Of a DNA stretch of 64,000 nt, positions 22,811 through 27,439 are shown piece by piece. Under the pieces are notes generated by a model, which saw only the letters and a program-made list of their open reading frames with translations, ran no database searches and was not told where the DNA came from. The DNA comes from Candidatus Kuenenia stuttgartensis (GTDB lineage Bacteria; Planctomycetota; Planctomycetia; Planctomycetales; Planctomycetaceae): contig CAMDPK010000003.1 in assembly GCA_945904015.1 (NCBI GenBank), forward strand, positions 33,390 through 97,389. Direction: 5' to 3'. Position numbers and translations under genes: made by a program. Positions within the stretch are counted from its first letter, which is position 1. Each line of letters opens with the position of its first letter.

Positions 22811-23884
22811 ATGAAGATCACTCGCATTTTGGCTTATCGCGTGGACCTGCCGTTGCGCGAAGGAACCTACAAATGGTCCGGCGGTAAATCGGTGTCGGTG
22901 TTCGACAGCACGGTTGTCGCAGTCGAGACCGACGCGGGGATCACCGGCTATGGCGAGGTCTGCCCGCTCGGTCCGTTTTATCTGCCGGCGTATGCGGCGG
23001 GAGCGCGGGCCGGGATCTTGGAACTCGGACCGCATCTGCTCGGCGAAGACCCGACGCAGTTGAGCAAACTCAATCGTCGCATGGATGCCGCACTGCAAGG
23101 GCATGCGTATGTGAAGTCGGCGATCGACATGGCCTGCTGGGACATTCTCGGCAAAGTGACCGGGCAGCCGGTGTGCGTGTTGCTCGGCGGGCGTTACGGC
23201 GATGACTTCGGACTGTACCGAGCGATCTCGCAGGAGACTCCCGAAGTCATGGCGAGCAAAGTCTCCGGCTATCGAGCCGAAGGCTATCGCCGCTTCCAAC
23301 TGAAAGTCGGCGGCGATCCGGACACCGACATCGAACGCATCCGAGCCGTCTCCGCGCAGCTTTAACCCGGCGACCGCCTGATCGCCGATGCCAACACCGG
23401 CTGGCTGATGCACGACGCGATGCGCGTCGTCAAAGCGGTGCGCGACATCGACGTCTACATCGAGCAACCCTGCCGCACCTACGAAGAGTGCCTGACGATC
23501 CGCCAGCACTGCGATCATCCATTCGTGCTCGACGAAAACATCGACTCGCTGGACGTGCTACTGCGCGGCCACGCCGACCGCGCGATGGACGTTGTCAACA
23601 TCAAGATCAGCAAGTTCGGCGGCCTGACGAAAGCTCGGCAAGCCCGCGACCTATGCGTGTCGCTGGGAGTCGCCATGACCATCGAAGACAGTTGGGGCGG
23701 CGACATCGTCACCGCCGCGATCGCGCATTTGGCTCATAGCACTCCGACGGAGTTCCTCTTCACGACAACCGACCTCAACAGCTACGTGACCGTCAGCTTC
23801 GCCGACGGAGCGCCGCAACGAACGAACGGCCGGATGTCGGCCAGCACGCAACCGGGTTTGGGAGTGACGCCGAAGTTTGACGTG
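22811..23884 (+). pseudogene. Enolase-superfamily (mandelate racemase-like) dehydratase, interrupted by a stop codon and a RIT element
   Basis: The N-terminal part (22811-23362) starts MKITRILAYRVDLPLREGTY and resembles cis-3-hydroxy-L-proline dehydratase/hydroxyproline betaine epimerase members: CPLGPFYLPAYAAG, KSAIDMACWDILGK and the Lys region FQLKVGGD. An in-frame TAA sits at 23363-23365. The same frame continues without shift into IADANTGW (metal Asp), IEQPC (Glu), LDENI and NIKISKFGG (second Lys). Near 23884 the RIT element interrupts the gene after GVTPKFDV; the missing end LGKPLVEVV and stop are at 27410-27439. The enzyme would dehydrate hydroxyproline-type substrates, feeding the divergent cyclodeaminase-like enzyme. 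As sequenced it should be inactive. Confidence 0.88.
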
Positions 23885-23914
23885 ATCGATTATGTGCCCT
23901 GGCACATAATCGAT
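23885..23914. repeat. Perfect palindrome at the left end of the RIT element
   Basis: The arms ATCGATTATGTGCC (23885-23898) and GGCACATAATCGAT (23901-23914) are separated by two bases. The TTATGTGCC core recurs in the adjacent inverted repeat and near 27328. It may be a recombinase core or binding site, or the trace of a previous integration. Confidence 0.85.
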
Positions 23915-23915
23915 C

Positions 23916-23944
23916 TAATGTGCCCAACTTCGTTATGTGGCCGC
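23916..23944 (+). repeat. Left terminal inverted repeat of the RIT element
   Basis: This 29-bp sequence begins TAATGTGCCCAACTTCG and continues with TTATGTGGCCGC. It is exactly repeated in inverted orientation at 27380-27408. It contains two head-to-tail versions of a T-ATGTG-CC motif, likely recombinase half-sites. Confidence 0.9.
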
Positions 23945-24000
23945 CGTGTCGGCGCGACGGTTGTGTGTGGGAGGTGGGCGTGGCATTGGCAACATAACCA

Positions 24001-25017
24001 TCAGAGCGATTCCAGCCATTTGAGCAATGCTTCGTCATCGCGCCAGACCAATTTTCGGTGGGCGCTACTTGTGGCGGGGACGGAAGGCTCACAGGTACGC
24101 AGCGCGTCGGCTTTGGTTCGGAGGGTGATTTCGGCGTAGCGGTTCGTGGTCTCCAAACTCGAATGTCCGAGCCAACCGCGGACGACATTGATCTCGACAC
24201 CGGATTCCAACAGATGGACTGCCGCTGTGTGTCGAAACGTGTGGGGACTGACTGTCTTCTTGAGCGATGGCTGGTTGCTCGTGAGCAGGTTGCCGGAATG
24301 GCGGCGCACGATTTTGTAGATCCCAAATCGAGTCAGCGGATGACGAGAGCGCGAGACGAACACTGGTTCGTCATTGGACCTCGGGGGCACCTGCTGCAAA
24401 AGCCGTTGAAGCTGGCGGGCGGTTTCGGTCCATAGGGGACAGATTCGCCATTTGTCTCCCTTGCCGTGAAGTCGGACGCGAGCTGGGGCGTTCAAATCGA
24501 GATTGCTGACACGCAGGTCGGCGACCTCTTGGACCCGAGCACCCGTGTTGTAGAGGAAGAGCAGCAAAGCGCGATCACGATCGGCATTCCTTCCGCTGGC
24601 TGGCACGCGGCGCAGCAGTGCGGCGACGTCATCCCGATCCAAGTAGTGCGTTTCGGGAGGCGCGACACGCTTCGTCGGAATGGCGGCCACTTGTTCACAA
24701 ACCATGAGCATCTCGGGAGAGCGTTGGGCCAAGTATTCGAAGAAGATGTGCAACGCCGCCAGCCGCTGATTACGAGTCCGAATGTGATTGTGCCGTTCCT
24801 GCTCCAAGTGACGAAGGAATTGCTGGACCTGTTCAGCATTCAGATCCTGTGTGCACAACCGCGTGATCGGCCGCCGGCTTGTCCGGGAGAGGAAACAGAG
24901 GAACAGCCGCAGCGTGTCACGATAACTGCGAATCGTGGTTGGCCGAAGCCCCTTCTGAACCGCGAGGTAATCCACGAAGAACGAATGAATCCAAGCCCCT
25001 AAAACTCCATTGATCAT
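24001..25017 (-). CDS. ritC: RIT tyrosine recombinase C
   Basis: The 338-residue tyrosine recombinase has an N-terminal SAM-like core-binding region (FFVDYLAVQKGLRPTTIRSYRDTL). The catalytic domain carries Arg in NTGARVQEVADL, the HTFRHTAAVHLL box (H-x2-R), GHSSLETTNRY and the nucleophile Tyr in RYAEI. It is the third gene of the trio; its start overlaps the stop of the second by 4 bases (25014-25017, ATGA). The three recombinases probably work together to insert and excise the element. It ends 56 bases inside the left terminal repeat. Confidence 0.88.
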   Translation of the reverse strand: MINGVLGAWIHSFFVDYLAVQKGLRPTTIRSYRDTLRLFLCFLSRTSRRPITRLCTQDLNAEQVQQFLRHLEQERHNHIRTRNQRLAALHIFFEYLAQRSPEMLMVCEQVAAIPTKRVAPPETHYLDRDDVAALLRRVPASGRNADRDRALLLFLYNTGARVQEVADLRVSNLDLNAPARVRLHGKGDKWRICPLWTETARQLQRLLQQVPPRSNDEPVFVSRSRHPLTRFGIYKIVRRHSGNLLTSNQPSLKKTVSPHTFRHTAAVHLLESGVEINVVRGWLGHSSLETTNRYAEITLRTKADALRTCEPSVPATSSAHRKLVWRDDEALLKWLESL

Positions 25018-26003: not shown

Positions 26004-27268
26004 GCGATCTCCTCCCCGTCGCCACAGGCGACTTCGCGCAGGGCTTCGACGGCAACCTTGCTGTAGATCGCGGTGGAAGCGGCGGAACGATGACCGACAT
26101 AGTCACCAATGACCTTCAGATCGAACTCGGCATCCACCAACCGCTGGACACAGGTGTGTCGCAACGTGTGCGACCCCGGCCTGGAAACCGAACTGCCGAT
26201 CTTGTGCAAATAGTGAGCAGCGCGCGAGGAGACCGCCGCTCCCGTGATCGGCTCCTGGGGAGCAACCGCTCGAAAGAAGACGTGACGATCCGTCGTTTGG
26301 GGCCGACCGTTTTGCAGATACTCCACGATGGCTTGCCCGACCAGCGGCGAAAGTGGGTACGCAGACGAATGCCCCGCCTTCCGTTCCGGAATACGCAGTC
26401 GTTCATTGCGCCAATCCAAATCGTCGACAGTCAGAGCGGCCACTTCATGAGCTCGAAGCCCATAGGTCACCAACAACATCAGAATCGCATAGTCACGCCG
26501 CCCGGTCGGCGTACGGCGATCGACCACGTTCAAGAGGCGGCGAACTTCATCCCAGGTCACCGAACGCGGGATCTTGGCGAGGCGATATGTCTGTGGCGGC
26601 TCGACGCAGTCGCTGAGATCGTTCCGTAAGACACGCTCGCGGTAGAGATAAGTCAGGAACACGTGCAGGATCCCGCAACCATTACGGACACTCGACCACG
26701 ACGTCCGCTGACTCATCTCGATCACGAATCCGCTGAGAACCGGTGGTGATAAATCACGAAGGTCGCGCAAGCCAATCCGTTCCAAGTAGGCCGCGAACTT
26801 CCGCAGGTGATGCCCATAGAGCTTGAGCGAACTCGCGCGAAGTCCCCGTTCTTCGGAGAGGTACGCAAAAAACTTTGGTGCGAGATCAACGAACGGATTC
26901 AGAGGCGGATGTGGGCGCCCTCGTCCTCGAAAGTTGGCGCAGACCAACCGCAGCATTTGCTCGACCGGGATGCGCGCGTCCTTCGCAATCTTGTCACGCG
27001 CCAGTGGGGAGTGGCGGGAGTTGCTGCGGGTCGCAACCCACCCGACAACAAATTCCTCGACATGATGAGCCAGTTCCTTCCATTGACGAGCACCTCGATC
27101 CCACGCGAACTGGCCAAAACGCGTCAGAATCGGAACTCGACGATGAATCGTCCGAGACGAATACTTCCGCTCGACTAACCAAGTGACATACTGCTCGATG
27201 GCCCCGCCAACCCACGAAGATCGGACACGATCGACGGTCTCGGGGCGGATGAAAAAACGTTCCAGCAT
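26000..27268 (-). CDS. ritA: RIT tyrosine recombinase A
   Basis: The 422-residue protein is the first and largest of the trio, as expected for RitA. Its start ATG 27268 is preceded by a near-perfect ribosome binding site (AAAGGAGG). The catalytic residues are visible: Arg in YGLRAHEVAAL, Lys-containing beta turn PERKAGHSS, HTLRHTCVQRL, GHRSAASTAIY with the nucleophile Tyr. The N-terminal about 110 residues are specific to this subunit. The promoter must lie in the 111 bases between 27268 and the right inverted repeat. Confidence 0.88.
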   Translation of the reverse strand: MLERFFIRPETVDRVRSSWVGGAIEQYVTWLVERKYSSRTIHRRVPILTRFGQFAWDRGARQWKELAHHVEEFVVGWVATRSNSRHSPLARDKIAKDARIPVEQMLRLVCANFRGRGRPHPPLNPFVDLAPKFFAYLSEERGLRASSLKLYGHHLRKFAAYLERIGLRDLRDLSPPVLSGFVIEMSQRTSWSSVRNGCGILHVFLTYLYRERVLRNDLSDCVEPPQTYRLAKIPRSVTWDEVRRLLNVVDRRTPTGRRDYAILMLLVTYGLRAHEVAALTVDDLDWRNERLRIPERKAGHSSAYPLSPLVGQAIVEYLQNGRPQTTDRHVFFRAVAPQEPITGAAVSSRAAHYLHKIGSSVSRPGSHTLRHTCVQRLVDAEFDLKVIGDYVGHRSAASTAIYSKVAVEALREVACGDGEEIA

Positions 27269-27379
27269 GGCAACCTCCTTTCTGGGTTTGAACCACGGAG
27301 GTTGCGTTCTATCGGAGCGATCGACGTTATGTGCCCAACCGTCCGTTCAAGCCATCATTGGGACCACGAAATGGTCTTC

Positions 27380-27408
27380 GCGGCCACATAACGAAGTTGG
27401 GCACATTA
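27380..27408 (-). repeat. Right terminal inverted repeat of the RIT element
   Basis: This is an exact inverted copy of 23916-23944. A further copy of the TTATGTGCCCAAC half-site lies inside it at 27327-27339, so the right end, like the left, carries extra half-sites. Confidence 0.9.
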
Positions 27409-27409
27409 G

Positions 27410-27439
27410 CTCGGCAAGCCGCTGGTCGAAGTGGTTTGA
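27410..27439 (+). pseudogene. Detached C-terminal codons of the enolase-superfamily gene
   Basis: Immediately beyond the RIT element the sequence reads, in one frame, LGKPLVEVV followed by TGA. This is the expected C-terminus of the mandelate racemase-like protein that stops abruptly at GVTPKFDV on the other side. Joining 23884 to 27410 restores one continuous C-terminal frame, GVTPKFDV-LGKPLVEVV-stop. Confidence 0.85.

Follow-up and report, generated by a model that had tools for sequence, protein, structure and literature searches.

RIT elements carry a trio of tyrosine recombinase genes. Those known from the Cupriavidus plasmid pHG1 and from C. metallidurans CH34 have an overlapping trio of distinct recombinases, a length of about 3.5 kb, 28-29-bp repeats and a palindromic end sequence, and are found inserted within genes, all of which recurs in the element described here (PMC3414803, PMC2864759); an "overlapping palindromic sequence" at RIT ends is already mentioned in PMC3414803. 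Further features given for RITs are a RitA with two core-binding domains and a RitC with an additional helix at its C-terminus (PMC8138268). A comparison published in 2023 enters the target specificity, empty-site formation and movement of RITs as not tested (PMC10214605, Table 1), and its authors knew of no laboratory reproduction of RIT transposition (PMC10214605). Here we analyse a RIT in 64,000 nucleotides of DNA from Candidatus Kuenenia stuttgartensis (assembly GCA_945904015.1, contig CAMDPK010000003.1, positions 33,390 to 97,389 of the forward strand; hereafter the window), where it splits a gene of the cis-3-hydroxy-L-proline dehydratase family (enolase superfamily). The layout of its ends, read together with those of related RITs, makes it probable that a circular form was inserted through tyrosine recombination, with a 6-bp spacer as the place of crossover.

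The RIT of the window and related recombinase systems

The recombinase genes lie on the reverse strand as ritA (26000-27268, 422 aa), ritB (25014-26003, 329 aa) and ritC (24001-25017, 338 aa). They are adjacent, co-oriented and overlap by 4 bp each (ATGA). All three products match Pfam Phage_integrase (4.5e-29, 8.4e-18 and 3.5e-31, respectively) and, among the pHG1 proteins compared, are closest to RitA (30%), RitB (38%) and RitC (37%); each is closest to its namesake also in the related loci L040, L043 and L044. The catalytic RH-Y motif is present in all three (HxxRH and GH...Y in each), the first Arg motif having been located by regular expression in RitB and RitC and by eye in RitA (VTYGLRAHEV). 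By the features tested, namely trio order, short overlaps (4-8 bp), a length of about 3.5 kb and 28-29-bp inverted repeats plus a palindrome (confined to one end), it qualifies as a RIT, and its insertion is real and ordinary in kind. It differs from the pHG1 trio in its proteins, which are only 30-38% identical.

Other systems share some of its properties. Strand-biased circularizing integrative elements (SEs) exchange 6 bp at the junction, show target specificity and have more than one tyrosine recombinase (PMC10214605), as in our reading of the RIT, and Tn554 has a 6-bp footprint (PMC10214605) and, like the window element, leaves no target duplication (title cited in PMC10214605). However, the SE gene set is IntA-Tfp(no RHRY)-IntB-Srap and that of Tn554 is TnpA-TnpB-TnpC, whereas the window has three genes between its terminal inverted repeats (TIRs), all of them tyrosine recombinases with catalytic motifs. 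The palindrome of the window is one-sided, and in the SE paper "palindrom" occurs 0 times (PMC10214605). GInts also have three tyrosine recombinase-type genes, and circular intermediates have been reported for them (PMC10214605, PMC5385486), but their set, ginA-ginD, includes a fourth conserved gene where the window has three in all (PMC5385486); a set of GInts inserts at the beginning or, preferentially, at the end of ssb genes (PMC5385486). By analogy, the window RIT would work like SEs and Tn554, with a 6-bp footprint, without belonging to either.

Anatomy of the insertion

The insert occupies 23884-27408 (3525 bp; junctions 23883/23884 and 27408/27409) and measures 3493 bp from TIR to TIR. 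On the plus strand, the left TIR (ritC end, 29 bp) lies at 23916-23944, and the right TIR (ritA end, 29 bp) at 27380-27408 is its exact reverse complement. Between the gene and the left TIR stands a block of 32 bp (23884-23915), self-complementary at 30 of its 32 positions, which is missing from the right end and from the orthologues of the gene. It is made of a 6-bp spacer S (GATCGA, 23884-23889), a 20-bp near-palindrome P (TTATGTGCCCTGGCACATAA, 23890-23909) found at the same offset in related RITs, and S' (TCGATC, 23910-23915), the reverse complement of S; all three are given on the plus strand. No further copy of P was found in the window at up to 3 mismatches. At the other end the TIR is followed directly by T (GCTCGG, 27409-27414, plus strand), which preserves the V-L-G codons of the orthologues. 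T agrees with the corresponding bases of the two nearest orthologues, in genomes G006 (ACTCGG) and G005 (GCTGGG), at 5/6 positions, and S at 3/6. The six bases of T belong to the target gene itself and mark the crossover, and S, which is absent from the orthologues and takes the position of the non-native spacer of L040 and L039 (see below), is foreign.

The gene has suffered neither deletion nor target duplication at the insert. The initial annotation of this DNA, made from the sequence alone, had already recognised the three recombinase genes with their 4-base overlaps, the perfect 29-bp terminal repeats and the lack of a long target duplication. The boundaries it had proposed, about 23885 and 27409, are near the true ones and off by roughly one base; its left edge lumped S-P-S' with the TIR.

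The split dehydratase gene

The 5' part of the gene (22811-23883, plus strand) is identified by NF043002, Pfam MR_MLE_N and MR_MLE_C and its orthologues, and the 3' end, reading LGKPLVEVV-stop, lies beyond the element at 27409-27439 (plus strand), as shown by alignment of the joined reading to the two nearest orthologous loci (L008 and L009, in G006 and G005). The joined flanks, 22811-23883 plus 27409-27439, give 368 codons (stops included) and match hydroxyproline dehydratase orthologues up to the C-terminus, in agreement with the earlier proposals that the RIT splits an enolase-superfamily gene and that the original C-terminus can be read on its far side. The joined reading ends in DVLGKPLVEVV, to be compared with DVLGKPLVEVR in G006 and DVLGKALVEVR in G005, and the DNA alignment with these two runs at 90% identity through base 1097 of 1104. 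Because the C-termini of the orthologues and the DNA alignment agree, we take the join of the two parts to be correct. In 29 orthologous loci the frame ends at the predicted codon in 22, one codon off in 4 and six codons later in 2 (L013 and L035, whose extensions come after the same [LIF]G motif); the remaining one, L028, was misframed by the script, and its frame was reported open in the genome search. Thus 26 of the 29 end no more than one codon away from the predicted stop, and not at the different C-terminus that would have told against the split.

The record is less clean than the initial annotation had it. Besides the extra S-P-S' at the left junction, the gene carries an in-frame TAA at 23363-23365 (plus strand), where G006 has CAG and G005 has CAA, so that the dehydratase is broken twice, by the RIT and by this stop. 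On either side of the stop NF043002 scores 308.7 bits (residues 1-183) and 266.9 bits (profile positions 200-358); its curated cut-off is 500 bits, and the two values belong to pieces scored apart, not to a joined protein. The 159-residue C-terminal piece has matches in 34 of the 59 genomes searched (its own included, E 1e-40), the nearest orthologues over this piece being those of G006 (96% identical) and G005 (94%). A paralogue elsewhere in the same genome is 75% identical over the piece and has an open frame of 392 codons.

A palindrome on the 5' side of the target

A RitB profile search of species genomes yielded at least 431 confirmed loci, and the best 80 of these, together with six plasmid loci and the window, make up the 87 loci examined. 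A TIR pair could be resolved in 46 of them, and 35 of these had enough flanking sequence on both sides to be checked for a palindrome with its centre 16 bases beyond the repeat. P was found at exactly one end in 26 of the 35 (17 at the ritA end and 9 at the ritC end), at both ends in 0 and at neither in 9. Its centre lies exactly 16 bases outside the TIR at 26 of 73 testable ends, while all other offsets from 8 to 39 together gave 1 match, and this same offset recurs in RITs of several phyla. Four near-identical loci (L081, L090-L092) are included in these counts. To obtain a set of 23 distinct elements, window included, the four were removed, as was L067, whose other end passed at 3 mismatches, and L064 and L110, two of the nine loci with P at neither end, were added, since they carry it with 3 mismatches. 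Two further loci of the nine, L113 (palindrome found by a separate search) and L115 (by eye), were mis-registered in the offset-16 test; the other five are L051, L056, L065, L069 and L083, which are described below.

Among the 23 distinct elements, P stands at the ritA end in 13 and at the ritC end in 10. Relative to the interrupted gene, its place is constant: in all 22 with a readable target, the window among them, P lies 5' of the target gene, in either orientation of the element (the targets of L059, L064 and L077 were read partly by eye; that of L110 is unreadable). The split of 13 to 10 across element ends, against 22/22 on the 5' side of the target, indicates that the side of P is set by the target and not by the element. 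Below we write x for the flank upstream and y for the flank downstream in the direction of the target gene.

Three loci (L051, L065 and L069) show the downstream half of a target gene at each end. At L069 the halves come from two different istA-like genes, a layout as expected from recombination of two copies in opposite orientation; L051 and L065 are possibly effects of assembly.

The spacers and the six bases of the target

S is the reverse complement of S' in 13 of the 23 elements; 10,000 shuffles gave a mean of 1.2 and a maximum of 7. S equals T in 9/23, T is the reverse complement of S' in 10/23, and all three are equal in 8/23. S ends in GA in 20/23 and T in 21/23; the two elements whose T does not include that of the window. 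Both spacers beside P can differ where P itself does not (L039, L043, L073 and L085), so that S and S' are not fixed parts of the element.

Intact copies of the target show which of the spacers is native. In plasmid pBN2 of Paraburkholderia aromaticivorans, L040 can be compared with an intact copy of ISBmu3 on the same plasmid: 500 bp on each side are 100% identical, the six bases of the intact copy are GCCCGA, which is the T of L040 (its S is GTTCGA), and the intact copy has no P. For L039 of Rhizobium tropici, two intact istA copies in two Rhizobium plasmids (x flanks 97 and 93%, y flank 89% identical) have TCCGGA, again its T, whereas its S is CTACGA. At L085 the native CCCCGA leans to T (5/6, versus 4/6 for S), and at L043 T and S are tied at 5/6. 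Searches for an empty site of L070 and L061 gave no match. The flanks of L084 (Comamonadaceae) come from different IS21 elements (x 35% and y 91% identical to L130), perhaps through recombination of two RIT-bearing istA genes. Records of RIT targets are common, L040 with its intact target in the same plasmid being an example, and the window insertion is not the rare target record that it was first said to be; its unusual feature is a metabolic-gene target instead of a transposase gene.

The usual target and the site in the window

Flanking pieces were scanned for protein domains. Of the 25 y pieces listed, 14 were scanned, and 13 of these matched Mu-transpos_C, Mu-transpos_C_2 or rve_3, the other one IS110. 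Among the x pieces (16 scanned of 34) there were 8 with rve, 1 with IS110 (L087), 1 with RadC (L094) and 6 with nothing decisive, and the rve matches end at profile positions 70-73 of 102. In 21 elements other than that of the window the target columns are nearly invariant (G at the fifth base of T in 20/21 and A at the sixth in 21/21, A at y2 in 21/21 and at y3 in 20/21), so that T ends in GA and y starts with YAA in nearly all, which gives Asp-Asn codons. GA is the first two bases of the catalytic Asp codon. Alignment of an intact target to IstA of IS5376 places the cut at D187 (residue numbers counted by hand), and the DDE (Asp-Asp-Glu) residues of that protein are D124, D187 and E233 (PMC10122671). 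Related RITs mostly lie in transposase genes, which they break at the codon for the second catalytic Asp of the DDE domain. The dehydratase of the window lies outside the transposase class entered by most of the other RITs examined.

Neither this target nor the one-sided palindrome rule nor the 6-bp T/S spacers are found in the RIT descriptions of PMC3414803 and PMC2864759; the rule for the side of the palindrome and the catalytic-Asp target are not stated in the literature searched, and Van Houdt 2009, Ricker 2013 and Nielsen 2017 may hold them. RITs within radC have been described before from C. metallidurans and B. petrii, and another target reported in the same paper is an IS66 tnpA (PMC2864759). 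In our sample, the RIT of L094 lies within radC (Pfam RadC), with a His codon at the cut. Two RITs with P from Acidobacteria (L093 and L100) interrupt a reading NPRxxFD..AL.xLA, recognised by eye and without a Pfam match, which we presume to be ParB-like.

The dehydratase site reads GT|GCTCGG|CAAGCC. A target matrix built from the 21 other elements, without the Burkholderia locus, places it first among 2118 positions in the gene, 5th among 14,860 in a 7.5-kb empty-site region and 27th among 120,860 in the window. These ranks imply that the site resembles the usual target at the DNA level despite an unrelated protein.

As to the origin of the copy, no IstA C-terminal domain (PF22483) was found in its own genome, whose assembly is 91.7% complete, so that an istA may have been missed, and the four rve loci of that genome contain no GATCGA[CT]AA. 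There is no second copy of the element in the genome either; beyond the element itself and matches of its own ends, the search returned 79% identity over 70 bases and 70% over 99. Within the class (297 genomes, E 1e-50) the only other match to a close RIT is in G166, at 39%, and for RitB at E 1e-70 there was no match outside the own genome among 392 genomes of the phylum and 170 of the family (169 others). The lack of a detected istA and of RitB in family kin fits a recent arrival, in which case an incoming RIT would have used a secondary site, no IS21-type istA having been found in this genome.

A probable route of insertion and its alternatives

The layout x-S-P-S'-TIR...TIR-T-y is what insertion of a circular form would produce. 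At the circle junction, TIR-S-P-S'-TIR, the sequence would form an almost perfect dyad that holds two equivalent cores, and in each of them arms of about 10 bp would enclose a 6-bp spacer (GGGCACATTA-GATCGA-TTATGTGCCC for the window). Either core could cross over with a directional target and would give this layout in either orientation of the element; pairing through either spacer would thus fix the side of P, leave the orientation of the element free and make T native. Excision would take up T, which would appear as S at the next insertion, as a record of the former address. The S of the window would stem from an earlier site, since its last two bases are GA, as in the targets within transposase genes, while those of the dehydratase site are GG. 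The agreement of all three spacers in 8 of 23 (S' as its reverse complement) would mean repeated jumps among like targets. A wider proposal, that RITs aim the dyad of the circle junction at the catalytic-Asp six bases of DDE transposases, disable rival transposons and carry along the six bases of the old target, has in our judgement even chances of being right.

Several observations weigh against these proposals. The circle and the strand exchange are deduced from sequence and not observed. An exact match of native bases to T was obtained at two relatives only (L040 and L039), and at L084 the six bases of the reference (CTACGA) equal S instead, yet the x flank there is unrelated (35%) and for this reason the reference is not a true empty site. 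S differs from the reverse complement of S' in 10/23. P is missing from L083 and is present on both sides of L056, where the test mistook the palindrome for the repeat, and likewise of L086, which is outside the 46 loci with resolved TIRs, and L051, L065 and L069 have flanks of the y type at both ends. Concerning the target, 7 of the 8 rve matches fall below the Pfam curated cut-off, which we attribute to only part of the domain lying left of the cut, and other target classes exist: radC, and perhaps parB-like genes. The matrix columns partly reflect conservation of the IstA protein, and with the 16 core columns only the window site drops to rank 10 of 2118, 36 of 14,860 and 328 of 120,860; at the sixth base of T it has G, a position occupied by A in all 21 others. 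Finally, the searches of the own genome and of its kin found no donor of the window RIT.

Three other explanations bear on the same block. S-P-S' could be a fixed, longer end of the element that entered by ordinary insertion with no transferred spacer, which would suit the palindrome mentioned at RIT ends (PMC3414803), the direct contact of S' with the TIR and the good conservation of P. We consider this unlikely, as a fixed end would not move between the ritA end (13/23) and the ritC end (10/23) while staying 5' of the target in 22/22, nor would S and S' vary among elements that share P, as in L039, L043, L073 and L085. It is far less probable still that P is an older, independent small repeat of the host gene into which the RIT jumped. 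Palindromic repeats of other kinds do occur in the genome (a GGAGTGCGGTG-type repeat has 41 matches), but no palindrome is present in the intact ISBmu3 target or in either of the two nearest orthologues, the window holds no other copy of it at up to 3 mismatches, and P recurs at one fixed offset in RITs of several phyla.

Repair deserves more weight. S-P-S' can fold back on itself, and S' might be the reverse complement of S because of hairpin-templated repair of a single-stranded intermediate, an idea that draws on the 13/23 elements with complementary spacers, far above the shuffles. We regard it as possible, if rather doubtful: repair at every jump would not leave mismatches in 10/23, and S, S' and T would also become equal, as they are in 8/23, if an element jumped again and again among targets that share one spacer. 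Insertion of a circle across the spacer thus keeps our preference for the window and its relatives.

Neighbouring sequences

In the window, only 30 bp separate the stop of the dehydratase from a convergent GDSL-hydrolase open reading frame (ORF; 27470-28423). The orthologues of these two genes are about 2.2 kb apart on one contig of G005, and in G006 a different ORF follows the dehydratase. We also weighed a rearrangement at the right junction but discarded it, since the GDSL-hydrolase gene and the dehydratase share a contig in G005 and the element is followed by the 31-bp tail of the gene itself. The next ORF, GidA/MnmG (28423-30297, Pfam GIDA), contains at 28810-28870 a short inverted peptide-coding repeat (QVSNLP...QVGNLPH) that appears to be inserted in frame.

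Upstream of the dehydratase, between it and an ornithine-cyclodeaminase-type gene, an inverted-repeat unit resembling repetitive extragenic palindromes or miniature inverted-repeat transposable elements (REP/MITE-like) extends over 22664-22803 and starts with GGAGTGCGGTGTGTCAGCACCGC. One arm of it is also found at 18912 (minus strand), within a protein-kinase ORF (15831-19694; peptide GSDTPHSKG), and the repeat unit has 41 matches in the genome at up to 2 mismatches, against 0 for the reversed control.

Implications

The value of the window insertion lies in the anatomy of its ends, which the relatives turn into a testable rule. Their comparison gives an exact empty site, a 6-bp crossover, the target rule and the one-sided palindrome rule. 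With these, the way in which a widespread element transposes can be put to a direct test, and donor and recipient would be distinguishable from sequence. If the target rule is true, RITs would disable IS21-type transposons in nature, and from the window copy one would learn how a RIT behaves in a genome where no IS21-type istA was found. If S is indeed a record of the former address, every RIT would carry a readable trace of its previous site, including the copy stranded in a metabolic gene of the window.

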